From Bacteroidia bacterium (GTDB lineage: Bacteria; Bacteroidota; Bacteroidia; J057; JANWXU01), in NCBI GenBank assembly GCA_025057395.1, contig JANWXU010000013.1:1-48852 (forward strand): DNA of 48,852 bases, in the 5' to 3' direction. This document shows positions 1-47,710 of the stretch, piece after piece. Each line of letters opens with the position of its first letter. The stretch's first letter is position 1. The position numbers and the translations under genes were made by a program. The notes under the pieces are model-generated. The model did not search any database. It worked only from the letters and a program-made list of their open reading frames with translations, and had not been told where the DNA came from.

Positions 1-3000
1 TAATTACTAATTCCCCTTATGAATTTTTGATAGAAGATATTACTACTACAACAACCTTTTATTTAGATTCTTATAATTCCATTACAGGCTGTAGTAGTGC
101 TTCACGCGCTACTGCCATAGTACGCATAGAACCGTTACCTTCGCCGCCTATAGCCCAGGAAGTCTTAAGATGCGGAGGGGGCGAAGCTACAATTACAGCA
201 ACTATGGGACCCAACCCGGGTACTGAAATACGATTATACAATACGGAGTTTGATGAGGTGATTTTAGCACGCGATGTTAGTTCTCCTTTCATTTTAGTCA
301 CTCCAAGTGTTAGTACTACTACTACTTTTTATCTCTCTACTGTTCGAGGTAATTGTGAGAGTTTACGGCAAGCTGCCGTAGTAAACGTTCGTTTAGAGCC
401 ATCCTCGCCCCTTACTGAAAATGTTATTCGTTGTGGCACAGGTATTGTCACTTTTACAGCTAGAATGGGAGGAATTCCAGGTACAGAGGTTCGTCTTTTT
501 ACTTCACCCAATAACCTTACCCCTATTGCTCTAGCTACTAATGAGCCCTACCGCCTAACGGTACCAAATTTAACTACTACTACTACTTTCTACATGGCAG
601 CTGTAAGTATTTTGCCAGAAGGGATTTGTATTAGCGATAGAATACCAGTAATTGCTACTATTAATCCTAACCCAAGTGTACCTAGTGCAACAAATGTTTT
701 TCGGTGTGGGGCTGGGCCCGTTACTTTTACCATAAATCGAGGGAATACTACTGTTGGGGAGGTACGCTTTTATGAACAGCCTAGCGGCGGCAGTGCAATA
801 GGTACTGCTGATGGTGCGCCTGCAATATTTACTACAGGGGTATTAACTACTCATACTACCTATTTTGTTGCTAATGCTATAGGGGTGTGTGAGAGTCCTA
901 GGATACGTGTCGTAGCTAATATTCGTCCCCAGCCTGGAGCTATTAGTTTATCTCCGGTGGTGCGTTGCGGAGTGGGTCCTGCGACTTTTACAGTAGAAGT
1001 TGCTAGTTTTCAGAATACAGATATTCGCTTATACGATTCTCCAGAGGGCGGAAGTTTAGTTGCTGTTGCAAATGTTTTTCCTTATCGCCTTACAGTACCC
1101 TTAGTGACAACAACTACTACTTTTTATGCTACTAATTATCTAGATGATTGTGAATCGGCAAGAGTTGAGGCAATAGTAAATGTGGTTAGCAATCCTGTGG
1201 CTCCAAGGGCTTCTAACGTAAATCGTTGCGGGAGTGGCTCTGTTACTTTTACAGTAGAAGCAGCTACCCAACCAGGCTTAATTATTAGTTTATACTCTAC
1301 TACCTCGCAGGGTACTCCTTTAGCCAGCACTTCTACTTTTCCTTACTTCTTAGAAATAAATGAAGTTATTACTACTACAACCTATTATTTGGAAGCGAGA
1401 ATTGGAGAGTGCTCAAGCACTCGTTCAAGTACAGTAGCAACTATTTCTCCTGCCCCTTCTAGTCCACAGCTAGTTGCCCAATCGCGGTGTGGAAGTGGTT
1501 TAATTACTATTACCGCTCAAATGGGTAATGTAAGGGGGAATGAAATACGATTTTTTGATACAAATGGTAATTTACTGGCTATTGATAATACAGAGCCTTA
1601 TACTTTTACTACTTCGATTAATAGCGGCATTCAAACATTTTTTGCTACTGCTAGTTTACCTGCTTGTGAAAGTCCTAGAGCAAGTATAGAGGTTTCTGCA
1701 GGTATTGTGCCTACTCCACCCCAGGCCTCGAATTTTGAGCGTTGTGGCAGCGGGAGAGTAATTACATTGACTGCAACTATGGGCCTAATACCAGGTAGAG
1801 AAATTAGATTATATGATAAGCCTCAAGGCGGAGGAGTAATTGCTATTGCTACTAGTGAGCCATATTTATTAACTATTCCAAATGTAGCTACTGGTACTAC
1901 TACCTTTTACCTAAGTAGCGCTATTAATACTGCCGAGGGAACCTGCGAGAGTACACGCACACCTGTGACAGTAACTATCAATCCTTCTTTATTACCACCG
2001 GTAGTTCGAACTGAAAGTCGCTGTGGAGAAGGGAGAGTTGTTTTTACAGTTTCTCACGCAAACTCTTCTAATGTTGAAGTTCGGCTATATACTCAGCTAA
2101 CCGCCTCTATTCCTATTCAAATTGAAAGAGGACAAAATTTATTTATTACTTCGCCTTTTATTAATGCCACTACTACTTTTTACTTCTCAACTTTTGCTAA
2201 TGGTTGCGAAAGTGAGCGAGTATCTGTAACGGCTGTTATTTTGCCTGTACCGAGTCTTCCTGCTAGCCAAGATGTATTTTTGTGTGGTAGTGGGAGTGCA
2301 ACTTTTACAGTTATTCCAGGGGCAGTACCTGCCACAGAGTATCATCTTTATGCTTCTGAGGAGAGTCAATTGCCAGTTGCTATAGCTACGCAAGCGCCTT
2401 TCCGCTTAACGGTTCCCTTTGTGAGTACTACCACTACATATTACATACAAGCAGTGAATAATACTTCTTTAGGGCGGTGTAGCAGTTCTAAGGTACTGGT
2501 AAGGGCAGCAGTAGGGCAAGTATTGCGAGCAGCTTCTATTCCCTTACAAAATAGCTGTGGTGCTAGTATCTTTAGTTTTAATCTAAATCCGGAAAATATT
2601 AATGGTGTTGAGATTAGGATTTATACGAATGCCCAATCGAATATACCTATAAGTGTTCTCAATCAAAATCCTTATATCTTCACTACTCCTCTTTTAACTA
2701 CTTCAACTACCTACTTTTATAATACATCGCTAGGAGGCTGTCAAAGTAATCGTGTTGCTTTTGAAGCAATAGTAACGCCCTTACCCCCCACGCCTTTAAT
2801 AAGAAGTAGCGCATCGAATATTTGTGGTTCCGCTAGTGTTACTTTTACTATACAAGCTTTACAAGGAAACACAACAGGTTTAAGGCTATATGATAGTGTT
2901 GGGCGCTTAATTGAAACCTTTAATGCAAGGGAAGCTATATATGTTGCTAGCTTAACTACTACCACTACGTTTTTTGTTTCTGCTTTGAATGGTAACTGTG

Positions 3001-5735
3001 AAGGTAGTCGAGAAGGAGTAGTAGTAATTTCTTCTCGAACTCCTGCACCCGAGCCCAAAACTTTTGCAACTTGTGCAGGTCAAACTGTTTCATTTACTAT
3101 TGAAGACTTAACTCCTAACCGCGAATACCGCCTTTATCCTGATATTACAAGTACTTCGGTGGTGGCATTAGCGAATTTACCGCCCTATACTATTACTACT
3201 CCTGCTATTCAAACCAATACTACTTTTTACCTCACGAATTTTGAAAATAATTGTGAAAGTAGCCGGGTACCTATTACTGTAAATTCTACTTTAGTTCCTT
3301 CTGCACCTTCGGCAAGTAGTGAACGCAGGTGTGGTGCGGGGGCAATAACTATATCTGCTGCTATGGGTAGTTTAGCTGGTACTTCGATGCGCCTCTATGA
3401 TGCTGCCCGGGGAGGTAATTTAGTAGACGTTGCAAATAGTTTTCCTTATATTTTTACTGTTACTCCTCCTGTTATAGGTACTTTTACCTATTATGTTTCT
3501 GCTGCAATAGGAAATTGCGAAAGCTCAAGAGTACCTGTGGTAGTTTCGGCGGGCCAAGAGCCTAGTGCACCCATAGTGCAGGAGCAATTCCGGTGCGGAG
3601 CAGGTAGTTTAAGTTTTACAGTTTTGATGGGTAATATTAAGGGCGAGAGTATTCAAGTGTATGATACTCCGCAGGGCGGAGCTCCTATAGCTACTTTGCA
3701 GGTAGCACCATATATATTTGTTACTCCTACTTTAAGTAATACGACTACCTATTATTTTGCAAGTATTGGGCAAGGGTGTGTAAGTTCAAGAGTTGCTGCA
3801 GTAGCTACTATTACCCCTCAACCTTCTGAACCACTAGCTTTGCCCGCTTGTGGTAATGAGCAGGTTATTTTTACTGTAAGCTCTGGATCGGTAGCGGGTG
3901 AAGAATTTCGGTTATATACCCAGCCCACAGGTAATGTGGCACCTATTATAGCGGTGCCTAGCACACAAAATCGTATAGTAGTCAATAATCCTACCCAGAC
4001 TACTTACTACCTTAGTGCTGCTAATAGTCGTTGTGAAAGTCAGAGAGTGAGGGTGGAGCGAATAATAGGGGTTTCGCCTATTATTAGTTTTAATACTTCT
4101 GCTGAAAGTTGCTTTAATTTCGGGAGTATCACTGCCAGTGCTTCTGCTGGTGCTGGAGGATATGCCTATGAGCTTTATCAGGGGAATACTCTTATTGCCA
4201 CTAATCGTACGGGTGAGTTTACTGCTATTAGGGGAGGGGTCTATCGTTTGGTAGTTCGAGATGGAAATGGATGTTTTGCGGAGGTAAATGCAAGGGTGGC
4301 TTCTATTCCAACCCCTGTGTTTACAAGTAATCCTACGGTAACTTCTAGTACTGCAACTATTAATTGGAGTGCTGTTCCTGGGGCTCAGAATTATATTCTA
4401 CAATATCGTGCTTTGCCCGATGGTACTTTTACTACCCTACCGCCCATAAGAGCAGAACAAACAGGCATTACAATTACTGGTTTACAGCCGAATGCGCTTT
4501 ATGAGGCGCGAGTACAAGCTGTTTGTACAGGGGGTAGAAACTCGGATTTCTCGCCTCCTATTTCATTTCAAACTTCAGATATTTCCTCTACCTCCTGTAG
4601 TTCTCCTACACGCCTTAGAGCTGATGTTGCGGTTAATACTGCTACTTTAAGTTGGGAGGCAGTAAATGGAGCTATTGGTTATAATATTTTGTATCAGAGG
4701 CTACCTGATGGAGCTGTTCAGCAAGTTACTAATCTCAGTAGTACTACTTTTATTCTAAGGGATCTTGTAGAAAATACTGAATATGCATTTCAGGTGCAAG
4801 CTGTGTGCAGAGGGGGCTTAACCTCAGCTTTTTCAGCGCGCCAGGTTTTTGTTACGGGAAATACCTCCGCAGTGTGCGCTATTCCTCAGAATGTAAGAGC
4901 AGAAGCAGGAATTAATGAGATATTAGTATTGTGGAATGCAGTGCCTAATGCTGTGAGTTATACCCTTCAATATAGAGAATTGCCAGGTGGAGCTCCGCAG
5001 TTAGTTACAGGAATTACTAGCACGAATTACCTAATAGGGAACTTAGAGGGAGAAAAGACTTATGAGGTAAGGGTACGGGCTAACTGTTCTAGTGGAATTT
5101 TTTCTGAATATTCTCAGGGTGTAGCTGCTACTGTGAGGTCTGGGGGTAGCGGGAACTGTGGTATACCAACGGGTTTATCTGTTAGTTTTCGTCCGGGGAA
5201 TGTTGCCTTTTTGAGTTGGCAGCCTGTGACAAATGCCTTGTGTTATATTGTTTCGGTAGGTATTAAAGGACAACCTACTGATACATGGATTGATTACCTA
5301 GTTCCTGCACCAGGCACTTCCTTGGAAGTATTTAATTTGATACCAGGGAGAGAATACAGTGCTCGAATTCGCTCTAATTGCAGTTTATGTTCTATTAGAA
5401 CAGGGCTTCGCTCAAGCTTCAGCGGTATTTTGGATTTTACGATGCCTCTAGCTCGTCAAGATCTAGAAGCAATAGCTTTAAGAGAAGTGGAGGCTTATCC
5501 TAACCCGAATACAGGAATTTTTCAAGTTTACTTTAATAAATCTAAAGATAGGATAAATGATTTGCAGTTTAAGGTTATAGATATGAGTGCGAGAGTAGTT
5601 TTGAAACGAGGAATTGCTCAAAAGGTTACAGAAAATAGTTGGCTATTGGATGTAAGGAACTTAGAGCCCGGAGTGTATATAGTAGAGCTAATAGCGGGAG
5701 ATGGTGTAGAGCGAGTTCGAATTGTTAAAAATTAA
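1..5735 (+). CDS. Giant T9SS-secreted Ig-like/FN3 repeat adhesin, 5' end outside window
   Basis: The reading frame is open from base 3, and the first eight residues before the TTG at 27 already fit the repeat, so this is the 3' part of a longer gene and the TTG is not its start. About fifteen repeats of roughly 80-90 residues follow. Each has an RCG(S/A)G motif, an E(I/V)RLY strand, a TTTTFY strand and a closing CES-R motif. A SprB-like glycine-rich unit lies near 4070-4305, then about four FN3-like domains (4305-5440), and last a type A T9SS sorting domain that begins AYPNPNTG and ends RIVKN. The protein is inferred to be exported across the outer membrane by T9SS and attached or released at the surface, possibly for adhesion or gliding. 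The ligand is unknown. No enzymatic domain is visible. The type and secretion route are secure; the role is inferred. Confidence 0.88.
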   Translation, partial: ITNSPYEFLIEDITTTTTFYLDSYNSITGCSSASRATAIVRIEPLPSPPIAQEVLRCGGGEATITATMGPNPGTEIRLYNTEFDEVILARDVSSPFILVTPSVSTTTTFYLSTVRGNCESLRQAAVVNVRLEPSSPLTENVIRCGTGIVTFTARMGGIPGTEVRLFTSPNNLTPIALATNEPYRLTVPNLTTTTTFYMAAVSILPEGICISDRIPVIATINPNPSVPSATNVFRCGAGPVTFTINRGNTTVGEVRFYEQPSGGSAIGTADGAPAIFTTGVLTTHTTYFVANAIGVCESPRIRVVANIRPQPGAISLSPVVRCGVGPATFTVEVASFQNTDIRLYDSPEGGSLVAVANVFPYRLTVPLVTTTTTFYATNYLDDCESARVEAIVNVVSNPVAPRASNVNRCGSGSVTFTVEAATQPGLIISLYSTTSQGTPLASTSTFPYFLEINEVITTTTYYLEARIGECSSTRSSTVATISPAPSSPQLVAQSRCGSGLITITAQMGNVRGNEIRFFDTNGNLLAIDNTEPYTFTTSINSGIQTFFATASLPACESPRASIEVSAGIVPTPPQASNFERCGSGRVITLTATMGLIPGREIRLYDKPQGGGVIAIATSEPYLLTIPNVATGTTTFYLSSAINTAEGTCESTRTPVTVTINPSLLPPVVRTESRCGEGRVVFTVSHANSSNVEVRLYTQLTASIPIQIERGQNLFITSPFINATTTFYFSTFANGCESERVSVTAVILPVPSLPASQDVFLCGSGSATFTVIPGAVPATEYHLYASEESQLPVAIATQAPFRLTVPFVSTTTTYYIQAVNNTSLGRCSSSKVLVRAAVGQVLRAASIPLQNSCGASIFSFNLNPENINGVEIRIYTNAQSNIPISVLNQNPYIFTTPLLTTSTTYFYNTSLGGCQSNRVAFEAIVTPLPPTPLIRSSASNICGSASVTFTIQALQGNTTGLRLYDSVGRLIETFNAREAIYVASLTTTTTFFVSALNGNCEGSREGVVVISSRTPAPEPKTFATCAGQTVSFTIEDLTPNREYRLYPDITSTSVVALANLPPYTITTPAIQTNTTFYLTNFENNCESSRVPITVNSTLVPSAPSASSERRCGAGAITISAAMGSLAGTSMRLYDAARGGNLVDVANSFPYIFTVTPPVIGTFTYYVSAAIGNCESSRVPVVVSAGQEPSAPIVQEQFRCGAGSLSFTVLMGNIKGESIQVYDTPQGGAPIATLQVAPYIFVTPTLSNTTTYYFASIGQGCVSSRVAAVATITPQPSEPLALPACGNEQVIFTVSSGSVAGEEFRLYTQPTGNVAPIIAVPSTQNRIVVNNPTQTTYYLSAANSRCESQRVRVERIIGVSPIISFNTSAESCFNFGSITASASAGAGGYAYELYQGNTLIATNRTGEFTAIRGGVYRLVVRDGNGCFAEVNARVASIPTPVFTSNPTVTSSTATINWSAVPGAQNYILQYRALPDGTFTTLPPIRAEQTGITITGLQPNALYEARVQAVCTGGRNSDFSPPISFQTSDISSTSCSSPTRLRADVAVNTATLSWEAVNGAIGYNILYQRLPDGAVQQVTNLSSTTFILRDLVENTEYAFQVQAVCRGGLTSAFSARQVFVTGNTSAVCAIPQNVRAEAGINEILVLWNAVPNAVSYTLQYRELPGGAPQLVTGITSTNYLIGNLEGEKTYEVRVRANCSSGIFSEYSQGVAATVRSGGSGNCGIPTGLSVSFRPGNVAFLSWQPVTNALCYIVSVGIKGQPTDTWIDYLVPAPGTSLEVFNLIPGREYSARIRSNCSLCSIRTGLRSSFSGILDFTMPLARQDLEAIALREVEAYPNPNTGIFQVYFNKSKDRINDLQFKVIDMSARVVLKRGIAQKVTENSWLLDVRNLEPGVYIVELIAGDGVERVRIVKN
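3..4070 (+). repeat. Tandem ~255-bp coding repeats (Ig-like modules)
   Basis: About fifteen degenerate copies of a repeat of roughly 250-270 bp encode the Ig-like modules of the adhesin. The best conserved DNA in each copy is an ACT-rich run encoding TTTTFY, for example near 310-330, 570-590 and 1110-1125. The RCG motif opens each module. The copies differ at many positions, so this is an old expansion and not a recent perfect duplication. Confidence 0.85.
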
Positions 5736-11600: not shown

Positions 11601-12517
11601 CTTCTATTGTGGCTCATGAGGTAAATACTCCTTTGAGTGCTTTTCAAGGCACAATTCGCAATGTTCGTAATGCAATAGAATACCTGATTCAACAGCAAAT
11701 TCAAAATCTCCACGTTAATGGTGCAGAGAAGCAATTGCTTCTAGAACTTTTAGAAAATGCTCAAAGGTCTTCTATAAAATTTTCCACTGCAGAGGAAAGA
11801 AAATTACGAAGGCAATATGAGAAAGTACTAGAAGAAGCAGGCCTAGAACAAGCTGAAGAAATAGCCCAAATGCTTATTCGCAATAAGTTTGTAGGAGATA
11901 TTATACCCCTTATACCTGTCTTTAGAGTTTTAGGTACTGAAGCAATTCACTTTATAGACTTTGCAGGAAATTTATGGAGAAATATAAATACACTTGACAA
12001 TTCTTCGGCAAAAGCATTAAAAATTGTAAGTATTCTACGAGAAATTGTAAAACCCGATACCGATAAGCCTATTGAAGTAAATATTGTTGAAACTATTCGA
12101 CATATTTTGACCCTTTATGAATATTATTTAGTACAGGGTATTACAGTAGAAACCCACTTTGAAGATTCGCTTACTATTTTAGGCTACCCGCAGGAACTAA
12201 TGCAACTTTGGAGCAATATCATTATGGCTGATATTAAAGCAATGAATAACCAAGGAGTACTCATTATTAATGCTTGTAAAGCCGAGGGGGGGATAAAAGT
12301 AGAGTTTGTTGATAATGGTCCTCAGATTCCCGAAGAAGTATTAAAGCGAATTTTTATGGTAGATACAATAGCTAGAAGAGCCCAAGATAACACTGGCAAA
12401 AGCCTTGCTTCGTGTAAAAATATTGTAGAAAAGCATAACGGCAAAATTGAAGTTACTAGCTCCCCTGAGCAAACAAAGGTTTTTGTATGGCTTCCCTTTG
12501 ACCCTGAGGCAGTGTAG
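8660..12517 (+). CDS. Reg_prop/Y_Y_Y sensor histidine kinase with divergent ATPase domain
   Basis: The 1285-residue protein has a signal peptide (residues 1-25), a large periplasmic region of propeller-type repeats with DxxGxLW-like motifs (~30-710), a Y_Y_Y domain (~770-850), one membrane helix (~861-881), a long coiled coil (~885-975), a phosphoacceptor helix with HEVNTP (His986) and a C-terminal HATPase. A ~150-residue helical insert separates the H-box from the ATPase. The N-box keeps Asn1186 but reads SNIIMADIKAM, where NAxxA is usual, and the D-box is DNGPQIP (Asp1218). The glycine-rich lid normally written GTGLGLA is NTGKSLAS. The family senses extracellular ligands, often glycans. No response regulator, HTH or receiver domain is encoded nearby. 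A G8T8 tract lies at 9118-9133 within the propeller. Kinase class is clear; catalytic competence is uncertain. Confidence 0.85.
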   Translation: MRKTGFWDWIISLTTFFVCALSAVAQGGLEQYYEAGLPYIRYFSPKEYGYMPKNWSIIQDNRGVIYVSNEGHMILEYDGVAWRSLAAGNADVYSLACDTKGRLYYGGVGQFGLLEPNTLGNLKEGVPLSSVLLEEFPEEIKNFREVWSTYFFQGGVFFQTDKVLFYLKESSSKKKDFFTNTNTSSSSLDKIKAKAKVQWELKYFKPLSQFYLSYLVGDRFFIHDKYIGLFEFYNDQLNLVPGSEIFADLQVATMLPFDAYRILIGTREKGFFIWDGNSFLPFRTAADNYLLENSLYHGTVLREGGFAFATLFGGVVIINKEGFVKQFINKSVGLPVNQVHCTFEDKEGGLWIALSNGIARVELPSMLSRFNNHWMECTPFEIEGCRDIVRHKGKLFAATTQGIFVFHSTLIAKNNSPTVFIKPRFEFIGQNKIECWDLLSTHSSILAATKNGVFIVQEKGIEEQPIIESYARKLFRSEKDTNLVYVATNSGELFLLQYERGIWKNLGLVSIFESVIEVMTEDVQGRLWVSTKSHGLARITLNLKKLQSSAIEYFTVEHGLDDNNGNVVTRIGKDIFISNTVLYGILIFDEAKYQAFLRDKKTRPIYKTNFFGSIFGAGSDYVIFKIHVDHENRVWFFSTDGKDSKFKIHLAIKKENGSYYVRELLYNNFIDFLTEAFLVEKDGTIWFGGLPGIVRLNSPTPFLRKTTFPALLRGIMLIVNSARRSEITKDKYYPFEDNSSYIFKGYMTENYKPIPIKYEDRSIKIEYALPSFDRKDANEYQVWLERPRSIFHIIYSFFEKWFVTTYYLPSEWSAWEPVAFKEYDNLDPGEYTFHVKARNVYQNISSEATFTFEVLPPWYRTWWATTLWLILSALGVYGIVRWRTQRLEKEKQILELKVDERTRELNLTLEDLKKTNEKLEAANNEIQEKNIALQKQNEELEQKNRQIEIQIEEISKQNAVILEQSAIIVESEKKNVMAEFTSIVAHEVNTPLSAFQGTIRNVRNAIEYLIQQQIQNLHVNGAEKQLLLELLENAQRSSIKFSTAEERKLRRQYEKVLEEAGLEQAEEIAQMLIRNKFVGDIIPLIPVFRVLGTEAIHFIDFAGNLWRNINTLDNSSAKALKIVSILREIVKPDTDKPIEVNIVETIRHILTLYEYYLVQGITVETHFEDSLTILGYPQELMQLWSNIIMADIKAMNNQGVLIINACKAEGGIKVEFVDNGPQIPEEVLKRIFMVDTIARRAQDNTGKSLASCKNIVEKHNGKIEVTSSPEQTKVFVWLPFDPEAV
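9118..9133 (+). repeat. G8T8 homopolymer junction inside the kinase gene
   Basis: Eight G are followed by eight T, encoding FQGGVFFQ in the propeller of the sensor kinase. The current length keeps the frame open. Gain or loss of one base in either run would truncate the protein before its membrane helix. Confidence 0.9.
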
Positions 12518-12539
12518 GCTAAATTATTTTCATATTTGC

Positions 12540-13799
12540 ATGAATTCTAAAAATACTCGAAAGTTAATTACTAACATTGGAGCCCTCCTGCAAGTAGAGC
12601 AAAATGTGTGGGTAGAAGGTAAAGATTTAGACGTAGTTCCTCATATTTATGATGCTTATTTATTAATTGAGGGAGAATTTATTAAAGATTATGGGTCTAT
12701 TTCCTCATGCCCCCGGGAGTATGATGAGCTGATTGATGCTAAGGGAGGATGGGTGCTTCCTACGTTTTGTGATTCTCATACTCATATTGTATTTGCGGGC
12801 AGCCGTGAAAATGAGTATGTGCAAAGAATTTTAGGAGCTTCTTACGAAGAAATTGCTGCTAAGGGGGGAGGAATATTAAACTCTGCAAAGTGGCTACAAC
12901 AGGCAAGCGAGGAAGAATTACTTTTAGGAGCTTTTGCTCGGGCCCAAGAAGTGATAAGTTATGGGACAGGAGCCATTGAAATAAAAAGTGGCTATGGGTT
13001 GACCGTTGAATCAGAGCTTAAAATGTTACGGGTAATTCAGCGTTTAAAGTCTTTATTGCCTATACCTGTCAAGGCTACTTTTTTAGGGGCGCATGCTATT
13101 CCTATAGAATATCAAACGGATAGAGCAGGTTATATTTCCCTTATCATTAATGAAATGCTACCTAGGGTGGCTGAAGAAAGATTGGCTGACTATTGTGATG
13201 TTTTTTGTGATAAGGGCTTTTTTACTCCACAGGAGACGGAGCTTATTTTAGAAGCGGCTTGGAAATATGGTTTGAAGCCTAAAATTCATGCTAATGAGTT
13301 AGATTTTTCTGGCGGGGTACAGGTAGGAGTAAAAATGCAGGCTCTTTCTGTAGATCACTTGGAATGCAGTGGGCAGGAAGAAATTGATATTCTTAAAGGC
13401 TCTTCCACTATACCCGTATTTTTGCCAGGTACTTCCTTTTTTTTGAATATTCCTTATGCTCCAGCAAAAAAATTTCAAGAGGCGGGCTTAGGGTTTGCCC
13501 TTGCTAGTGATTATAATCCTGGCTCCTCTCCAAGTGGCAATATGAAGTTTATACAAACACTAGCATGTTTGTATATGCATATAACCCCTGAAGCTGCTCT
13601 TAATGCTACTACAATAAATGGGGCTTATGCTATGGAAGTTGCTTCTGAATTAGGTTCCATTAGCAGAGGTAAAATGGCTAATTTAATACTTACTAAGCCT
13701 ATTCCTTCTTTAGCTTATATGAGTTATGCCTATACGCAGAATATCATAATGCATGTATTTTTAAAAGGGGAAATTTTTGTACCTCAAGCAGTAGGTTAA
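12540..13799 (+). CDS. hutI: Imidazolonepropionase
   Basis: HutI hydrolyses 4-imidazolone-5-propanoate to N-formimino-L-glutamate, the third step of histidine degradation. The 419 residues match the family length. Metal-site motifs of the amidohydrolase fold are all visible: DSHTHIVFAG (two His), GAHAIP, IHANELD and ALASDYNPGSSPS with the final metal-binding Asp. The ATG at 12540 is chosen because family similarity begins there; an upstream in-frame ATG at 12447 lies inside the kinase gene. The gene starts 22 bp after the kinase stop. Its stop shares a TTAA with the stop of the convergent AsmA-like gene. FtcD, which handles the product, is encoded at 46.0-47.7 kb. Confidence 0.96.
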   Translation: MNSKNTRKLITNIGALLQVEQNVWVEGKDLDVVPHIYDAYLLIEGEFIKDYGSISSCPREYDELIDAKGGWVLPTFCDSHTHIVFAGSRENEYVQRILGASYEEIAAKGGGILNSAKWLQQASEEELLLGAFARAQEVISYGTGAIEIKSGYGLTVESELKMLRVIQRLKSLLPIPVKATFLGAHAIPIEYQTDRAGYISLIINEMLPRVAEERLADYCDVFCDKGFFTPQETELILEAAWKYGLKPKIHANELDFSGGVQVGVKMQALSVDHLECSGQEEIDILKGSSTIPVFLPGTSFFLNIPYAPAKKFQEAGLGFALASDYNPGSSPSGNMKFIQTLACLYMHITPEAALNATTINGAYAMEVASELGSISRGKMANLILTKPIPSLAYMSYAYTQNIIMHVFLKGEIFVPQAVG

Positions 13800-38932: not shown

Positions 38933-41900
38933 ATGGCAATAAAAACATTTTTCGTTCAAAGCCTTGCTACATGGATTACCCTGTGGTTTTTTTCTGCTTG
39001 GATAGTAAAAGTAAATGCTCAACCTCCATGTCAGGTATTAGCCTCTTCTAATTCGCCCCGCTGTGCAGGAGATACTCTAGAGTTTAGTGCAACCTTTTTA
39101 GCAGGTGCTTCTTATAATTGGCAGGGGCCTAATGGTTTTATAGACACTACTCGAAGTCCTCAAATCATTAATGTGCAAGTAGATAGAAGCGGTATTTATA
39201 CTTTAACAGTTTCGGGCTCGGGGTGCAGCCCTTTTACAACTACTATTAGTGTTGAAGTAAATGCTCAACCTGTTGCTAAGGCTCGAACGAATGCTCCTAT
39301 CTGTGCAGGCGACCTTCTTCTTCTAACGGCGGATAGTAATCCCCTGGGTACCACTTACTTTTGGCAGGGCCCAAGTGGCTTTACTTCAACGGACCAAAAT
39401 CCCTTTATTTTTGGTGCAGCACCTTTTTATTCCGGAGATTTTATTTTACACGTGAACTATAAAGGTTGCCAACAAAGAGATACTATTAAAAATTTAATTA
39501 TTAATACACCCCCAAAAGCAATAGCCAGCTCTAATTCTCCTTTGTGTGTGGGGGCAACTCTTAGTTTAGTAGGTACTGAGGTTAGTAGTCAACAGCCTCT
39601 ATATGCATGGAGTGGTCCTAATAATTTTATTAGTACTTTGCTTTCTCCTAGTATTGTTTCCGTGGATACAATCCATCGTGGAAACTACAAATTTAAAGTA
39701 CAGGCTCCCGGCTGTAAACCTGATTCTACGTTCATTACAGTACAGGTTAATCCTTTACCTAATCCTACTCTTGCTAATTCTACAGTAGCTTGCCAGGGGG
39801 GTAATTTAGTTTTATCTGTGGCAGCTATACCTAATGCTTCCTACCTTTGGCAACTTGCAAGTGGAAAAACAAGCTCCTTGCGCGTAGCTACTTTTGCGAA
39901 TGTGGATAGTTTAGATGCTGGAGACGCTACGCTTAGTGTTACAGTGCCAGGCTGCTCCGCTGTTACACGAATTACTACTATTATTATTAATCGCCAACAT
40001 CCCCCTTTGCAGGTGCGTAATACAGGCCCTGTTTGTACAGGCAAGGTACTTCAATTAATAGGAGGAAATTCTTTTTCAGGAGCTACCTACCAGTGGCGAG
40101 GACCTAATAATTTTCAATCTGATTCGATAAATACTACCATAAACAATGTTTCAACTACCTACAATGGAGTTTTTACATTAACTGCTACTGTAAGCGGTTG
40201 TCCTCCTACTACTGCTACTACATTAGTACAGGTAGATAGTATTCCTAATCTTTTTCCAAGAACTAATTCTCCTGTATGCGTAGGAGGGGGGCTTGTTCTT
40301 TCAGCAGCTTTTATTAAAAATGCACGCTACACTTGGCGTACTCCCAAAAACGTAACCTACAACCAATTGGTTTCGGTAACTATTCCTAGTGTTGTACCTT
40401 CAGATAGTGGAGTATATTATGTAGAGGCTACGTTAGGTTCTTGTACGAGGAGAGACTCTGTAGTCGTGTCTATAAATATTCCTCCTACTAATCCTAATCC
40501 CTTCAGTAATGCTCCTATTTGCAGTGGCGATACCTTAAAATTAACTGTCACTTCTTTTCCTAAAGCAAGCTATTTATGGCAGGGACCTAATAATTTTTCT
40601 TCTACGCTAGTTTCTCCTACCATTCCGGATGTTAAAACGCTAGCAAGTGGTACCTACCGAGTTACAGTAACTGTGCCAGCTTGTTTACCTGTTACTGCAA
40701 CAACAAGTGTGGTAGTGACGCAACGTCCTAACCCAGCAATTACTACTAATAGTCCTGTTTGTGCAGGGAATACTCTTCAGTTAGCAGTTACTCCTATTGC
40801 TGGAGCTACTTATCTATGGCAAGGACCTAACGGCTTTCGCTCGGTTAATCCGACGGTAAATAGAACTAATGCTACAACAGCCTTCAGTGGTTTGTATAGG
40901 GTGAAAGTATCGGTAAGTGGTTGTGATACTACCGTAAGTGATAGTGTTATTATTAATCCTGCTATTAGCCGTCCAGCTTTAGCTTCGAATGCACCTATTT
41001 GTGTAGGCGATACTTTGCGCCTTACTGCTACTACTAATGCTCAGAGTATTCGCTGGCAAGGTCCTGCAGGATTTGAGTCTACAGAGAATACTCCACAGCA
41101 AGTGACTACTTCTACTACTAACGGAGGGTGGTATAAAGTAATTGCCACTACTCCAGGATGTGCTTCAGTACGTGATTCAATTTGGGTAACCGTAAATCAA
41201 ATACCCTCCTTTCGAGCTACTAGTAATAGTCCTATTTGCGAAGGAGCAACTTTAAACCTAGGAGCTACTATCAATAGTATTCCGGGGGCTCGTTATCGTT
41301 GGAACGGACCCAAAGGATTTTCTGCTAACTCCCTGGTGACTAGAATTTCAAATGTAGATACTACTCAGGCAGGGAGATATGCTCTTACTATAACTTTACC
41401 TGGATGTACTGCCACCGATACAATAAATGTTACTATTAGTGCCAAACCTATTGCTCCTAACCCAGGTAATAGTGGACCGGCTTGTCAGACCGATAGTATT
41501 GTTACTTTTAGTGCAATAGCTATTCCTAACGCTACTTACTTATGGAGTGGCCCCGCTGGTTTTAGCAGTACTTTGCAAAATCCCATACTTAGAAATCTTA
41601 ATTTGCAGAAGGCAGGTATTTATACTCTGACTGTAACTACACCTTTTTGCCCTCCTATTACTGCAACTACTACGCTGGTTATCAATCCAAGTTTGCAAGG
41701 AATCAAAACTGGTAACAATGCACCTTTATGTGCAGGGCAGACTTTAGAATTGTTTGCAACTTTTATTAGTGGAGCAAGTTATACTTGGCAAGGACCAGGC
41801 GGATTTATCGCCACAACTGCTAGAGCAACACGTCAAGATGTAACGCCGGTAATGGCAGGAAACTATACGCTTACTGTTACTATTCCAGGCTGTCCTACCT

Positions 41901-43882
41901 TTACTACAGTGGACTCAAATATTGTAATTAACCCTAGTGCTAATTTGCCCAATCCTAGAAATAATAGCCCTATTTGTGAGGGAACAACACTTATTTTTAC
42001 TGCTAACCCTACGCCAGGGGCAAATTACATTTGGCAAGGACCCAATGGTTTTAATGTTACAACTGACGTGCCTACTTATTCTATGAGCGAAGCTTCGTTG
42101 GCAGCGGTAGGTATTTATACAGTTTCTGTAGTATTAAATAATTGCCCACCCGTAACAGGTACTACTAGTGTAGCAATTCGTCCTAACCAAGCAGCAAGTG
42201 CAACGCTTGATTTTTTTGAAAAAACTATATGTGGTGAGCAAGACCTTACTCTCACTATATTTTTAGGTGGAACTCCCCCTTGGGAAATAGTGGTTGCCGA
42301 AAATGGTATACCTAAAATTCAAAGTACTGGAATTACTGCTTCTCCTTATCAATTAGTTGTTCCTTTCCCTGGTTTTGGTACCTTTAATTATACCCTAGTT
42401 TCGGTACGAGATGCAGCTATTTGCAGTAGCGGTACCGGCAGTGTGGGTGGTTTTGCTTCTGCTACTTTCCGAGATGCTACACCGGCACAAGCTACCCTTA
42501 GTTTAGGTGAAAATGCAAGTGGTTGTGGGGGGGGGAATAGTAGTGTGAGTCTTGTAGTCAACCTAACAGGAAGAGGACCGTGGAAATTTTCTTATCAGGT
42601 AAATGGAACTAATACAGTGGAAGTGGGTCCGATTAATCAAACTCCCTATATTTTTGAGGCTCCGATTCCTAATAGGGGTACCAATACTTATGAGCTTATT
42701 TCGTTAATTGATGGTAATAATTGCTCGAATACTCAAGTTAGAGGTAGAGTTAATTTTGAAGCTAATCCTGATTTTCGTTTGGAACTTCTTGAAAAGGTAG
42801 ATGGCGGCTGCAGTAATGGTAGAATTATTGTTCGTGGTTTAGGGGGCTTGGATAATTTTGTTACCTACTCTATAGATGGTTTAAATTTTACCAATACTAA
42901 TGGTGTTTTTGAGAATCTTGCGCCAGGTATCTATACAGTATATGCTAAAAATCGCAATTGTGTGGTATCGCAGAATGTGGTAATTGCTGGTGTTGAACCG
43001 CCAGTATTGAACCCTATTACTAATGTGGGTGAAAATACATTACTTTTAAGTTGGACCCCCACTCGTAATGCAGCGAGTTATACTCTTTCGTATCGTGTAG
43101 TGGGTACTTCACAGTGGTTATATATTTCAGATATTACAGGTACTTCCCGCTTAATTACTAGCGGATTGATGCCCAATACGCGCTATGAATTTCGAGTACA
43201 GGCGGTTTGTGCTAATGGTGTAACCAGTGTTTTCTCTAATATTCAACAGGGGGTTCCTAGCGAAAGTGGCGGAAGTGGAGGAATAGGAAATTGCGCAACG
43301 CCGCCTACTCTAAGGTTAACTAACCGTACTTCCACAAGTGCTACCCTTAGTTGGCTTGCAAATACATCGGGTGCTGTATGCTATGTAGTGGCTTTTGGAC
43401 CCGCTAATACCAATCCTGAAACGTGGAGTTCCGTATTTTTAGTACAGCATCCTACTAATTCAGTTACTATAAGTGGACTCAATCCTAATCAAAATTATGG
43501 AGTAAGAATTCGAACTAATTGCAGTGTATGTTCTAGCCGTAGTGGCACACTTACTACTTGGTCTGCACCTATTACTTTTACTACTCTTTCTAGCAGAAAA
43601 TTTGATTTTGATACAGAAGAGGAAAATTCTTTAATTGCAGCTATTTATCCTAACCCAGCCTCTACTACTGTTACTTGTGAAGTGAAAGTAGCTCAAGAGG
43701 AAATGGCGCATTTAATACTTGCTGACTTACAAGGCAAAACTTTATATACAGAGCAAGTATACTTAAGGGCAGGCGTAAATGAAAAATCAATAGATTTAAC
43801 AGAAATTTCTCCGGGTCTGTATCTTCTTAGGCTTGTTACTCCCAGCCAAGAATATCAAGCAAAATTGATTGTTAATAAATAA
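38933..43882 (+). CDS. Giant T9SS-secreted Ig-like/FN3 repeat adhesin
   Basis: The complete gene encodes 1649 residues. A signal peptide (1-29, ending VNAQ) precedes thirteen Ig-like repeats of ~80 residues with the pattern SPxC-G-TL-L, Y-WQGP-GF, S-xGxYT-TV and P-GC. Two further beta modules follow (~1075-1300, with TICGEQDL and CGGGNSS), an SprB-like unit, an FN3 domain (~1360-1440), and a cysteine-containing FN3-like domain. The C-terminus is a type A T9SS sorting domain (AIYPNPAS to KLIVNK). It is inferred to be surface attached. A G9 run occurs at residues ~1199-1201. Binding target and role (adhesion, gliding) are unknown. Confidence 0.93.
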   Translation: MAIKTFFVQSLATWITLWFFSAWIVKVNAQPPCQVLASSNSPRCAGDTLEFSATFLAGASYNWQGPNGFIDTTRSPQIINVQVDRSGIYTLTVSGSGCSPFTTTISVEVNAQPVAKARTNAPICAGDLLLLTADSNPLGTTYFWQGPSGFTSTDQNPFIFGAAPFYSGDFILHVNYKGCQQRDTIKNLIINTPPKAIASSNSPLCVGATLSLVGTEVSSQQPLYAWSGPNNFISTLLSPSIVSVDTIHRGNYKFKVQAPGCKPDSTFITVQVNPLPNPTLANSTVACQGGNLVLSVAAIPNASYLWQLASGKTSSLRVATFANVDSLDAGDATLSVTVPGCSAVTRITTIIINRQHPPLQVRNTGPVCTGKVLQLIGGNSFSGATYQWRGPNNFQSDSINTTINNVSTTYNGVFTLTATVSGCPPTTATTLVQVDSIPNLFPRTNSPVCVGGGLVLSAAFIKNARYTWRTPKNVTYNQLVSVTIPSVVPSDSGVYYVEATLGSCTRRDSVVVSINIPPTNPNPFSNAPICSGDTLKLTVTSFPKASYLWQGPNNFSSTLVSPTIPDVKTLASGTYRVTVTVPACLPVTATTSVVVTQRPNPAITTNSPVCAGNTLQLAVTPIAGATYLWQGPNGFRSVNPTVNRTNATTAFSGLYRVKVSVSGCDTTVSDSVIINPAISRPALASNAPICVGDTLRLTATTNAQSIRWQGPAGFESTENTPQQVTTSTTNGGWYKVIATTPGCASVRDSIWVTVNQIPSFRATSNSPICEGATLNLGATINSIPGARYRWNGPKGFSANSLVTRISNVDTTQAGRYALTITLPGCTATDTINVTISAKPIAPNPGNSGPACQTDSIVTFSAIAIPNATYLWSGPAGFSSTLQNPILRNLNLQKAGIYTLTVTTPFCPPITATTTLVINPSLQGIKTGNNAPLCAGQTLELFATFISGASYTWQGPGGFIATTARATRQDVTPVMAGNYTLTVTIPGCPTFTTVDSNIVINPSANLPNPRNNSPICEGTTLIFTANPTPGANYIWQGPNGFNVTTDVPTYSMSEASLAAVGIYTVSVVLNNCPPVTGTTSVAIRPNQAASATLDFFEKTICGEQDLTLTIFLGGTPPWEIVVAENGIPKIQSTGITASPYQLVVPFPGFGTFNYTLVSVRDAAICSSGTGSVGGFASATFRDATPAQATLSLGENASGCGGGNSSVSLVVNLTGRGPWKFSYQVNGTNTVEVGPINQTPYIFEAPIPNRGTNTYELISLIDGNNCSNTQVRGRVNFEANPDFRLELLEKVDGGCSNGRIIVRGLGGLDNFVTYSIDGLNFTNTNGVFENLAPGIYTVYAKNRNCVVSQNVVIAGVEPPVLNPITNVGENTLLLSWTPTRNAASYTLSYRVVGTSQWLYISDITGTSRLITSGLMPNTRYEFRVQAVCANGVTSVFSNIQQGVPSESGGSGGIGNCATPPTLRLTNRTSTSATLSWLANTSGAVCYVVAFGPANTNPETWSSVFLVQHPTNSVTISGLNPNQNYGVRIRTNCSVCSSRSGTLTTWSAPITFTTLSSRKFDFDTEEENSLIAAIYPNPASTTVTCEVKVAQEEMAHLILADLQGKTLYTEQVYLRAGVNEKSIDLTEISPGLYLLRLVTPSQEYQAKLIVNK
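39030..42190 (+). repeat. Thirteen tandem ~245-bp Ig-like coding repeats
   Basis: Each unit encodes a module with an N-terminal SPICxG, a central YxWQGPxGF and a closing GC. Copies are diverged at DNA level but keep the key cysteines and WQGP. This repeat family differs from that in the first adhesin, where RCG and TTTTFY are the marks. Confidence 0.88.
42527..42535 (+). repeat. G9 homopolymer inside the second adhesin gene
   Basis: Nine G encode three glycines (CGGGN). Any slip of one or two bases would end the protein early and remove its FN3 domains and sorting signal. Confidence 0.9.
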
Positions 43883-43911: not shown

Positions 43912-43961
43912 GAAACCAAGAACTTAACAAACTTATCCACAAGTTCTTGGTTTCTTTTTTT
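43912..43961 (+). terminator. Rho-independent terminator between the adhesin and dnaG
   Basis: A perfect 14-bp stem (43912-43925 with 43941-43954) encloses a 15-nt loop, then T7 (43955-43961). It follows the adhesin stop by 30 bp and ends the adhesin transcript. The loop contains most of a DnaA-box sequence (TTATCCACA, 43933-43941). Confidence 0.92.
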
Positions 43962-44021: not shown

Positions 44022-45989
44022 ATGCGAATTCCCCAATCCGTTATTCAAGAAATTTACAATAGGGCAGATATAGTGGAGGTAATTAGTGAGTATGTTCCTT
44101 TGAAAAAACGAGGTTCTAATTACTGGGCGCTATCACCCTTTAAACAAGAAAAGACTCCCTCATTTGCAGTTTCTCCTTCAAAAGGGATTTATAAATGTTT
44201 TAGTACGGGTAAGGGTGGAAATGTAGTCAATTTTTTAATGGAAATGGAGGGGTTTTCTTATTTAGAGGCTATTAAGCATTTAGCTCAGAAATATAATGTC
44301 GATATTAGTTCTTATGAGGCAGAAAACGGGGCAACAAGTGCAAAAAGTGAAGAAAACTATGAAAAAGCCGAAAGTTTACGAATCTTGCATAAATTTGCCT
44401 GCCAATATTACCAAAAGCAGTTAAAAGAGTCAGAAGAGGGGCAAAAGGAAGCTTTAGTTTACTTTCACAAGCGAGGCTTGAGCCATGAAACTATTGAATT
44501 ATTTCAGTTGGGGTATGCTAAGTCTGGGTTGCAAGAATTTACGCAGTATGCTTTACAGGCACAGTACCGTGAAGAAATATTAGTAGAATCAGGCTTGTGT
44601 ATAAAGTCGGAAAAAAATGGTAAGTTGTATGATCGTTTCCATGGGCGTATCATTTTTCCGTTAATAGACGTTTGGGGAAAGGTGGTGGGTTTTGCAGGTC
44701 GTTTAATCCAGGAAACTGCTGGGGCTCCTAAGTATTTAAATTCTCCAGAATCTCCTATCTACCACAAGGGTAGGTTCTTATTTGGCTTGCATTTGGCGAA
44801 GACTGCAATCCGAGAGCAAAATTTATGTTTCGTGGTGGAGGGGTATATGGATATGATTAGTTTATATCAGGCAGGAATCAAGAATGTAGTAGCAGTGGGG
44901 GGCACTTCTTTAACTGCAGAGCAATTACAATTACTCAAGCGATATACGAATTCTTTGATTTTGCTTTTTGATGGGGATGCTGCAGGAATTAAGGCGGCGC
45001 AGCGAGCAATTGCCCTAGCCCTAGAAAATAATATGCGTCTTTTAGTATTGCAGCTTCCTCAAGAGCAGGATCCCGATTCTTATATTCAACAATACGGTAA
45101 AGAAGCATTTTTGGAACTGGTAGCAAGTAATGCAAAAGATTTTCTAGGTTTTTACTTTGCAATTCGTAAGGATGAAATTCCTAAGTTTGATCCTTTTCAG
45201 AAGGTAGCTTTTATTCAGGAATTGGTTACTCTAATTGCAAAAATTCCTGACTCTCTGCAAAGAGCTTTATATATTCAGCAACTAGCAGAAGGCTTAAAAG
45301 TACAAGAAGAGGAGATAGCTAATAGGGTAGAAGAAGCTATTAGGCAAATACAGAAGGTAGAAGCTAAGGTAGCAACTCCTAACCAAAAACTAGATATTCA
45401 GGGTTTGGCAATTGCTACTCACCTGGAGTTTGCTTCTTACTCCTCTTCCGAAACTTGGGCGCAAGAAAGGGAGCTTCTTCGATTATGGCTCCTGTACGCA
45501 GAGGAGCAGATTGCATGGGAGGGTGAAATTTATCGCGTTGCCGATGTGCTGTATCAAAATTTACACGACGTGGAGTTTGAAAATCCTATTTTTCAGAAAA
45601 TTAAAAGTATTCTGGTTTTTGAATATGAACAAAATAATTTATTTGATACTAACATTATGTTTGGGCCTGATGTAGAGGAGGACATCCTTGGGGTAGTTAC
45701 CGACTTACAAGTACAAAAATATACTTTAAGTGAGAATTGGTTAAGGCACGATATTTTAGCTCCGCAGGAGGATAGTAATTTATCTAAATGTGTAGAAAGT
45801 GCATTAGATCATTTTCAGCTAAAAAAAATTAATCAGCTTCATAAGCAAAATCAAGAAAAAATAAAAGAAATAGCTCAAAAGCCAGAATGTTTTGAAGAGT
45901 TAATAAACTTAATGAAGCGGCAGCAAAGAATTGAGCAATTGCGGAAAGAATTGGCTCTCAAATTAGGCTTGGTAATAACGTCTTACTAA
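44022..45989 (+). CDS. dnaG: DNA primase
   Basis: DnaG synthesises RNA primers for replication. The 655 residues have an N-terminal zinc-ribbon fold (~30-68), the RNA polymerase/TOPRIM core (~115-360, with YDRFHGRIIFP, VVEGYMD containing Glu273, and DGDAAG from Asp317, then DPDSY), and a C-terminal helicase-interacting region (~430-655). In the zinc ribbon the family CPFH is SPFK (Ser38, Lys41), and the second knuckle keeps Cys59 but has Thr62 in place of the last Cys, so three of four ligands are missing. The core catalytic acids are intact. The gene starts 60 bp after the terminator T tract. Confidence 0.96.
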   Translation: MRIPQSVIQEIYNRADIVEVISEYVPLKKRGSNYWALSPFKQEKTPSFAVSPSKGIYKCFSTGKGGNVVNFLMEMEGFSYLEAIKHLAQKYNVDISSYEAENGATSAKSEENYEKAESLRILHKFACQYYQKQLKESEEGQKEALVYFHKRGLSHETIELFQLGYAKSGLQEFTQYALQAQYREEILVESGLCIKSEKNGKLYDRFHGRIIFPLIDVWGKVVGFAGRLIQETAGAPKYLNSPESPIYHKGRFLFGLHLAKTAIREQNLCFVVEGYMDMISLYQAGIKNVVAVGGTSLTAEQLQLLKRYTNSLILLFDGDAAGIKAAQRAIALALENNMRLLVLQLPQEQDPDSYIQQYGKEAFLELVASNAKDFLGFYFAIRKDEIPKFDPFQKVAFIQELVTLIAKIPDSLQRALYIQQLAEGLKVQEEEIANRVEEAIRQIQKVEAKVATPNQKLDIQGLAIATHLEFASYSSSETWAQERELLRLWLLYAEEQIAWEGEIYRVADVLYQNLHDVEFENPIFQKIKSILVFEYEQNNLFDTNIMFGPDVEEDILGVVTDLQVQKYTLSENWLRHDILAPQEDSNLSKCVESALDHFQLKKINQLHKQNQEKIKEIAQKPECFEELINLMKRQQRIEQLRKELALKLGLVITSY

Positions 45990-46018: not shown

Positions 46019-47710
46019 ATGCACGAATCTTCAATTATTGAATGTGTTCCTAATTTTAGCGAGGGGCGCGATTCCTCAAAAATTAATGCCATAGCGGAGG
46101 CTATTCGAGGAGTAGAGGGGGTGCAGTTATTGGATATTGACCCTGGAAAAGCTACGAATCGAACAGTAATGACATTTGTGGGCTCTCCCGAAAAAGTAGT
46201 AGAAGCTGCATTTGCAGCCATTCGATGTGCAAGTCAGATAATAGATATGCGCTTTCATCAGGGGGAACATCCGAGAATAGGGGCTACGGATGTTTGTCCG
46301 TTAATTCCTATTTCGGGTATTTCTATGCAAGAAACTGTAGAATATGCTAAGAAATTAGCCCAACGAGTAGGAGAGGAGCTAGGAATTCCTGTATACTTAT
46401 ATGCTTATGCTGCCCAAAAGCCTAATCGTGAAAATTTAGCTACCATTCGCGCAGGAGAATACGAGGGCTTAGCTCAAAAAATGCGAGACCCTGAGTGGAT
46501 CCCTGATTTTGGTCCTACAGAATTTAACCCCAGGGCAGGGGCTACAGTAATTGGAGCACGAGACTTACTAGTAGCTTACAATATTAATCTAAATACTCGC
46601 TCGGTAAGGAGAGCTAATTCGGTAGCCTTCGACCTACGAGAACAGGGTCGAATTTTAAGAAAAGGACATCCCGTACTAGGGGAAATTGTAAGAGATGAAA
46701 AAGGAGAGCCAGTTCGCCTACCTGGAGTGTTAAAGGCTGTCAAAGCCATCGGTTGGTACATAGAAGAATATGGTATTGCCCAAGTTTCTATGAACTTAAC
46801 TAATATTCGAGTTACGCCTATTCATGTGGCCTTTGAGGAGGCATGTAAAAGTGCAAGTGCTAGAGGTTTGCGTGTAACAGGCTCTGAATTAGTGGGAATG
46901 GTTCCTCTGGAGGCTATTTTAGAAGCGGGACGTTATTTTTTAAAAAAACAAGGGCTTTCAGCAGGAGCAAGTGATGAGGAGCTTATTCACATTGCAGTAA
47001 AAAGTTTAGGTTTAGACGAACTAGCCCCTTTTGACCCCCAAAAGAAAATTATTGAATATGCTATAGCCAAGCCGGAGGAGCACAAGCTGGTGAATATGAG
47101 CCTTAAACAATTTGCCGACGAAACAGCTAGGGAAACTCCTGCACCTGGCGGCGGCTCTATTTCTGCTTATGTAGGGGCTTTAGGGGCAGCTTTGGGTACC
47201 ATGGTAGCTAATTTGTCAGCTAGTAAAAGAGGGTGGGAAGAAAAATTAGATTTTTTTTCAAAATGGGCTGTTCAAGGTCAACAAATTAAAAAAAGTTTGG
47301 TAGCGCTAGTAGACCAGGATACTATGGCTTTTAATCAAATTATGCAAGCTTATGCTTTGCCTAAAAATACAGATGTTGAAAAGGAAGTAAGGCAGAAAAA
47401 AATACAAGAAGCTACGCGTATTGCTATTGAAATTCCTTACAATACCCTGAAACAAGCCTACAATAGTTTATCCCTATTAAAAAGCATGTTTTACGAGGGC
47501 AATCCTAATTCAATTACAGATGCAGCAGTGGGTATATTGTGTGCTCGTACGGCTATGGAAGGAGCTTACTTTAATATTAGGATAAATGGAGAAAACTATG
47601 AAGATAAAAATTGGCTAAATGAAATCATTGTGGAAGCATCCGGGATGATAGAAGAGGCCCAAAAATTAGAAAATGAAATTAAAAATTTTTTAGCTCAGCG
47701 TTGGGGCTAA
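46019..47710 (+). CDS. ftcD: Bifunctional glutamate formimidoyltransferase/formimido-THF cyclodeaminase
   Basis: FtcD moves the formimino group of N-formimino-L-glutamate (from HutI) to tetrahydrofolate and then deaminates formimino-THF. Residues ~4-300 are the transferase, beginning IIECVPNFSEGRD and including FHQGEHPRIGATDVCPL. Residues ~359-563 form the cyclodeaminase, starting QFADETARETPAPGGGSISA and rich in helices. The full-length fusion of both halves is the common Bacteroidota form. It follows dnaG by 29 bp and is convergent with ispE. Confidence 0.97.
   Translation: MHESSIIECVPNFSEGRDSSKINAIAEAIRGVEGVQLLDIDPGKATNRTVMTFVGSPEKVVEAAFAAIRCASQIIDMRFHQGEHPRIGATDVCPLIPISGISMQETVEYAKKLAQRVGEELGIPVYLYAYAAQKPNRENLATIRAGEYEGLAQKMRDPEWIPDFGPTEFNPRAGATVIGARDLLVAYNINLNTRSVRRANSVAFDLREQGRILRKGHPVLGEIVRDEKGEPVRLPGVLKAVKAIGWYIEEYGIAQVSMNLTNIRVTPIHVAFEEACKSASARGLRVTGSELVGMVPLEAILEAGRYFLKKQGLSAGASDEELIHIAVKSLGLDELAPFDPQKKIIEYAIAKPEEHKLVNMSLKQFADETARETPAPGGGSISAYVGALGAALGTMVANLSASKRGWEEKLDFFSKWAVQGQQIKKSLVALVDQDTMAFNQIMQAYALPKNTDVEKEVRQKKIQEATRIAIEIPYNTLKQAYNSLSLLKSMFYEGNPNSITDAAVGILCARTAMEGAYFNIRINGENYEDKNWLNEIIVEASGMIEEAQKLENEIKNFLAQRWG

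Follow-up and report, generated by a model that had tools for sequence, protein, structure and literature searches.

A probably zinc-independent ribbon in the DnaG primase of a Bacteroidia genome and its recurrence in bacteria and phages

Accounts of DnaG usually assign its zinc ribbon a part in reading the template. In a Bacteroidia genome, the dnaG gene carried on a contig of 48,852 nucleotides that was analysed at full length (hereafter, the window) encodes a ribbon in which three of the four zinc ligands have been replaced, raising the question of whether this domain is decaying, holds a metal through other residues, or works without one. The explanation that we consider likely is that the DnaG zinc ribbon has given rise, repeatedly, to a metal-independent ribbon that is closed by hydrogen bonds and still works.

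The window's dnaG gene and its altered ribbon

The ORF and its profile matches identify a complete dnaG gene on the forward strand (44022–45989) that encodes a DNA primase of 655 residues. The protein scores 469.4 bits against the bacterial DnaG primase model TIGR01391 (cut-off 283.6 bits), and its N-terminal ribbon domain (residues 1–97, 44022–44312) scores 118 bits against PF01807 (curated cut-off 24.9 bits), the single match to this profile in a search of the 4.08-Mb assembly. On the same strand follow the N-terminal part of the catalytic core (DNAG_N, residues 129–260, 44406–44801; PF08275, 129.5 bits), the TOPRIM part of the core (residues 270–355, 44829–45086; PF13155, 93.3 bits), and the DnaB-binding region (residues 391–426, 45192–45299; PF10410, 35.1 bits). 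The PF08275 and PF10410 scores both exceed their cut-offs, indicating that the core and DnaB-binding domains are present, and the TOPRIM acids E273, D317, and D319 are kept and are invariant in a 12-sequence alignment.

Within the ribbon, the Cys-His-Cys-Cys tetrad of the CHC2 family is replaced by Ser38, Lys41, Cys59, and Thr62, which face C, H, C, and C of A. aeolicus DnaG in an alignment to 2AU3. The first knuckle (44133–44144, forward strand) reads S38-P-F-K41 in place of C-P-F-H, with Ser38 encoded by TCA (44133–44135) and Lys41 by AAA (44142–44144). The second knuckle and the adjoining turn (44193–44219, forward strand) read K58-C59-F-S61-T62-G-K-G-G66 in place of K-C-F-G-C-G-K-G-G, with Cys59 encoded by TGT (44196–44198) and Thr62 by ACG (44205–44207), while the EKTPSF and GKGGN motifs are intact. 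A first-pass annotation of the window had read SPFK and CFSTG, with Cys59 the only ligand left of four and with EKTPSF, GKGGN, and the TOPRIM acids kept; the codons and the 2AU3 alignment confirm the first part, and our reading of the motifs together with the 12-sequence alignment confirms the second. The window's DnaG shares its domain order, catalytic residues, and predicted ribbon fold with the CHC2-ribbon DnaGs of B. stearothermophilus (1D0Q) and A. aeolicus (2AU3), but differs from them in the exchange of three ligands for Ser, Lys, and Thr and of Gly61 for Ser.

Wrong base calls at 44133–44210, which that annotation had named as a possible source of error, are excluded because the same loss is found throughout the window's order: 21 genomes were searched, one of which had no match and one of which gave no locus, and all 19 loci read are zinc-less. 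The intact ORF and this common loss likewise rule out a pseudogene. Judged from its sequence, the window's ORF is an ordinary chromosomal DnaG primase with a ligand-less ribbon.

Several observations on the surrounding genes were made by eye. An inverted repeat with 14-base arms (43912–43925 and 43941–43954) followed by a T run (43912–43961 in all) resembles a terminator and sits between dnaG and a large upstream ORF. This ORF (38933–43882, 1649 aa) ends 139 bases before dnaG and is one of two very large repeat proteins in the window (the other at 27–5735, 1902 aa), the C-terminal ends of which resemble a secretion-sorting tail. Elsewhere, the ORF at 12447–13799 looks like imidazolonepropionase and that at 46019–47710 like a glutamate formiminotransferase/cyclodeaminase fusion; these would be histidine-breakdown genes, lying far apart in one window.

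Spread, form, and origins of the zinc-less ribbon

We aligned the ribbons of the window and 201 further loci (202 rows); discarding three rows that repeated the window's gene and one from a duplicate genome left 198 Bacteroidota DnaGs. All four ligands are present in 107 of these and 91 are zinc-less, with no mixed state, a ratio that does not estimate frequency because the loci were chosen by similarity to the window and partly by a pattern spanning the second knuckle in both states. The suggestion of the first-pass annotation that other lineages may share the change is thereby borne out. Every zinc-less protein has lost both Cys38 and Cys62 and carries Asp or Cys at position 59; His41 is kept in three of the 91, all f29-type proteins. 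By eye we found no half-changed DnaG (Cys38 with Thr or a TCN-encoded Ser at position 62), the corresponding DNA pattern having matched 36 of 197 genomes.

The named zinc-less groups comprise all Flavobacteriaceae sampled, Mucilaginibacter, a Flammeovirgaceae MAG, and several Flavobacteriales MAGs. Zinc-type ribbons are found in Pedobacter, Sphingobacterium, Spirosoma, Hymenobacter, Chitinophagaceae MAGs, a Saprospiraceae MAG, the Bacteroidales and Marinilabiliales with the exception of one MAG (L149), and the f28 family, in which 12 of 12 DnaGs read CHCC. Three MAGs labelled Chryseobacterium gleum (L152), Chitinophaga pinensis (L159), and Thermoanaerobaculia (L185) have DnaGs that sit apart from those groups and are probably mislabelled or contaminated bins. 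Outside Bacteroidota, 11 replicons of a plasmid collection were read: those of Methylobacterium and Methylorubrum carry the zinc-less signature, and zinc-type ribbons are found in those of Paracoccus, Tistrella, Sphingomonas, Sinorhizobium, Rhizobium, Halomonas, E. coli, Neisseria, and Acetoanaerobium. No description of a zinc-less DnaG was found in the open literature by title or the start of the abstract, a scope outside which most subscription journals fall.

The replacements are stereotyped. Position 38 is Ser in 91 of 91 zinc-less DnaGs, position 59 is Asp in 66 and Cys in 25, and position 62 is Ser in 66 and Thr in 25. Position 61 is Ser in 90 of 91, as opposed to Gly in 102 of 107 zinc-type proteins; Lys64 and Gly65 are each present in 90 of 91 zinc-less proteins versus 75 and 49, respectively, of the 107. 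Position 41 is free, taking Ser, Thr, Val, Lys, Ala, His, and other residues. Mean entropy over positions 54–66 is 0.36 bits in the zinc-less set versus 0.69 bits in the zinc-type set. Furthermore, ribbon identity is 0.529 for zinc-less versus 0.478 for zinc-type pairs at a core identity of 0.40–0.45, and 0.641 versus 0.611 at 0.55–0.60, where the matched pairs are non-independent. Across six independent pairs, four columns (38, 41, 61, and 62, all in the ribbon) switch together with zinc state in 5.9–6 of the 6; columns 59, 35, 30, and 65 show the same tendency, and none of the core columns switches consistently, giving no sign of compensating core residues in these pairs. Neither positions 28–71 nor the columns tied to zinc state contain a new conserved Cys or His. 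The fixed replacements, the low entropy, and a ribbon identity that is not lower than in zinc-type pairs together indicate that the zinc-less ribbon is a second, tightly held state and not decay.

This state has arisen several times. An IQ-TREE phylogeny of 111 rows, built from residues 71–430 so that the ribbon knuckles were left out, requires 12 state changes (bootstrap range 12–14), six of which are forced by well-supported (starred) branches. Aligning Bacteroidota DnaGs and mapping the loss on a tree had been proposed in the first-pass annotation, and the answer is a repeated loss. A single ancient origin of the zinc-less type is rejected in a 36-row subset chosen by hand (dlnL 211, p-AU 1.5e-66). 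The codons for Ser38 also divide by group: TCN is used in the window's order (20/20), Mucilaginibacter (6/6), and a group from another class (5/5), and AGY in Flavobacteriaceae (37/37), a Weeksellaceae-type group (4/4), and the f21 group (6/6), while the mixed remaining Flavobacteriales have six AGY and one TCN. Each of TCN and AGY can be reached from the Cys codon TGY in one step, and a single step does not convert one into the other. The zinc state is likely ancestral, since solved DnaGs and those of other phyla are mostly zinc-type and the rebuilding of ligands would be improbable. The same replacement set has arisen repeatedly in separate lineages, and the two Methylobacteriaceae replicons mark a further origin of the signature. 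Recurrence of the same swap in related bacteria and some phages suggests that the domain can work without metal.

Primases of phages and prophages

Among 82 viral loci (80 from IMG/VR and two named), 74 read CHCC and eight are zinc-less with the same signature. Ten further named loci include three that are zinc-less (Flavobacterium phages 1H and 23T and Caulobacter phage Sansa) and seven that are zinc-type (five Porphyromonas phages, Leptospira LE3, and a Helicobacter prophage); the Rhodobacter RcRhea primase is also zinc-type. Relatives of the C-terminal part of the laban6-1 primase occur in 8 of 397 Flavobacteriaceae genomes, and all seven readable prophage ribbons are zinc-less, two of them read at the second knuckle only and the eighth cut by a contig end. 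One genome whose own DnaG reads CHCC (G590) contains three prophage primases, all zinc-type, and in the f28 family 7 of 394 genomes matched, with one of eight loci showing a DnaG ribbon, also zinc-type. Every flavobacterial phage or prophage primase examined is thus zinc-less, and those examined from zinc-type host groups keep zinc, an agreement that rests on few phage lineages and on host states mostly inferred from the host group and not from the same strain, the dnaG of Porphyromonas lying outside those read.

The flavobacterial phage primase-helicases (laban6-1, 1H, Ingeline, and prophage relatives) carry the same S-x-[CD]-[ST] ribbon signature as the window's DnaG but differ from it in their length of ~1,050–1,190 aa and an added C-terminal part. 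The primase is one long ORF in Flavobacterium phage 1H and three annotated ORFs in 23T. The zinc-less phages fall in several places on the phage trees (five changes, three of them forced), and their cores group with phages and not with host cores. Ser38 is encoded by TCN in laban6-1, 1H, and Ingeline and by AGT in prophage L337. As a separate observation, Sansa shares the zinc-less signature with Methylobacterium and Methylorubrum, while zinc-type ribbons were read from the other alphaproteobacterial replicons.

To us, the most interesting question that these data pose is why a zinc-less ribbon is common to whole bacterial groups and their phages. Phages that match their host group in zinc state point to a pressure on the cell as a whole, and tentatively, with somewhat less than even confidence, we propose cell-level selection for zinc-free priming, under which DnaG and the phage primase-helicases converged on S38, D/C59, S61, and S/T62. 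Such a pressure could be metal mis-loading, thiol oxidation at the ribbon, an inhibitor of zinc ribbons, or a shared replisome partner. Slightly more doubtful is that phages took the ribbon from their hosts by recombination, so that the agreement would reflect gene exchange and not shared pressure. The laban6-1 ribbon is indeed unusually close to that of Flavobacteriaceae (70% identical, versus 31–34% for the core), but ribbons are generally more conserved than cores, and the TCN codon of the three named phages, set against AGY in 37 of 37 Flavobacteriaceae, argues against simple capture.

How the ribbon may work without zinc

In zinc knuckles, the metal-bound cysteine accepts hydrogen bonds from backbone NH groups. 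In the zinc-less ribbon, Asp59 or an unliganded Cys59 would keep this acceptor, and side-chain hydrogen bonds of Ser38, Ser61, and Ser/Thr62 would close the emptied metal site, which would adjoin the retained G-K-G-G turn. The ribbon could then grip the template and contribute to start-site choice alongside the catalytic core with no zinc bound. In B. subtilis DnaG, stable binding to the template is lost when the zinc-binding domain is removed (PMC5429622), as would fit a domain that a primase has to retain. An AlphaFold2 run on residues 1–430 with 51 sequences predicts the window's ribbon with a pLDDT of ~96, and residues 1–99 superimpose on zinc-bound 1D0Q at 0.9 Å (Z 17.7, 99 residues); a zinc-type Pedobacter control gave a pLDDT of ~90 and 1.5 Å (Z 17.2, 99 residues). 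The prediction supports a metal-free fold and does not prove it, because the predictor, whose training probably included zinc-bound DnaG ribbons, may copy the family fold.

The ribbon site of the window's DnaG very probably holds no zinc, and the protein would be a metal-free variant of the known DnaG. The interpretation in the first-pass annotation is therefore supported as to a metal-free site and its presence in other lineages, while its proposal of different start-site rules is unsupported. In C. difficile primase, K70, a lysine adjoining the zinc knuckle, affects the CCC/CTA preference (PMC5204125); judged by its position beside the third ligand, this residue would correspond to K58 here. 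Lys58 is kept in every one of the 91 zinc-less DnaGs and in 100 of the 107 zinc-type ones, so that zinc loss alone gives no grounds for predicting a changed start rule. Searches of the open literature yielded no start-site data for any zinc-less DnaG.

Of the competing readings of the ribbon itself, the best placed, although improbable, is that the ribbon still binds zinc or a harder ion through Cys/Asp59 with Ser38, Ser/Thr62, or neighbouring residues. It would account for the invariable Asp or Cys at 59 and hydroxyl residues at 38 and 62 (91/91) and for the His41 of the f29-type proteins, and Cys59, where kept, could still touch a metal together with other residues. However, residue 41 is free, 25 Cys and 66 Asp make an odd mixture for one metal, and positions 28–71 have gained no conserved Cys or His. 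Less probable still is zinc economy, in which zinc-short cells shed zinc sites where possible, DnaG among others. Loss of zinc sites for this end is known for some ribosomal proteins, and the phage primases of flavobacterial hosts share the zinc-less state, but the DnaG change does not belong to a general loss of zinc sites, since the ribbons of PriA (8 Cys) and LigA (4 Cys) are intact in the same genome. That the ribbon is dispensable and lost its zinc by drift is suggested by the loss of three of four ligands in the window but is scarcely credible, being refuted in the main by identical replacements in separate lineages, tighter positions 54–66, and undiminished ribbon identity.

A metal-independent DnaG ribbon, our preferred reading, has partial parallels. 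In zinc-free "C-minus" ribosomal paralogues, a metal-free ribbon of the same fold stands in for a zinc ribbon; these are usually additional copies that come into use under zinc shortage, unlike the present case, in which the sole DnaG found is of the zinc-less type throughout an order. Animal Twinkle, a primase-helicase of the T7 gp4 type, is likewise primase-like with a changed primase part (PMC3610141), but it lost primase activity, whereas the core and TOPRIM acids of the window's DnaG are intact and its ribbon is strongly constrained. The all-or-none, stereotyped, repeated, and phage-shared nature of the change goes beyond the first-pass annotation and would mean that a metal-free DnaG ribbon is fixed in large groups, such as every Flavobacteriaceae DnaG read. 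Sister pairs such as Mucilaginibacter and Pedobacter offer a natural comparison for zinc's own role, and zinc-less bacteria should be insensitive to any inhibitor directed against the primase zinc site.

Two further observations concern zinc proteins of the window's genome. The recR gene (TIGR00615), with its zinc finger PF02132, was not found in the 96%-complete assembly, but its absence is uncertain, as such searches also miss it in some known genomes. A 375-aa frame (C189:34487-37564, L307) contains two paired-CxxC stretches that resemble two zinc ribbons.
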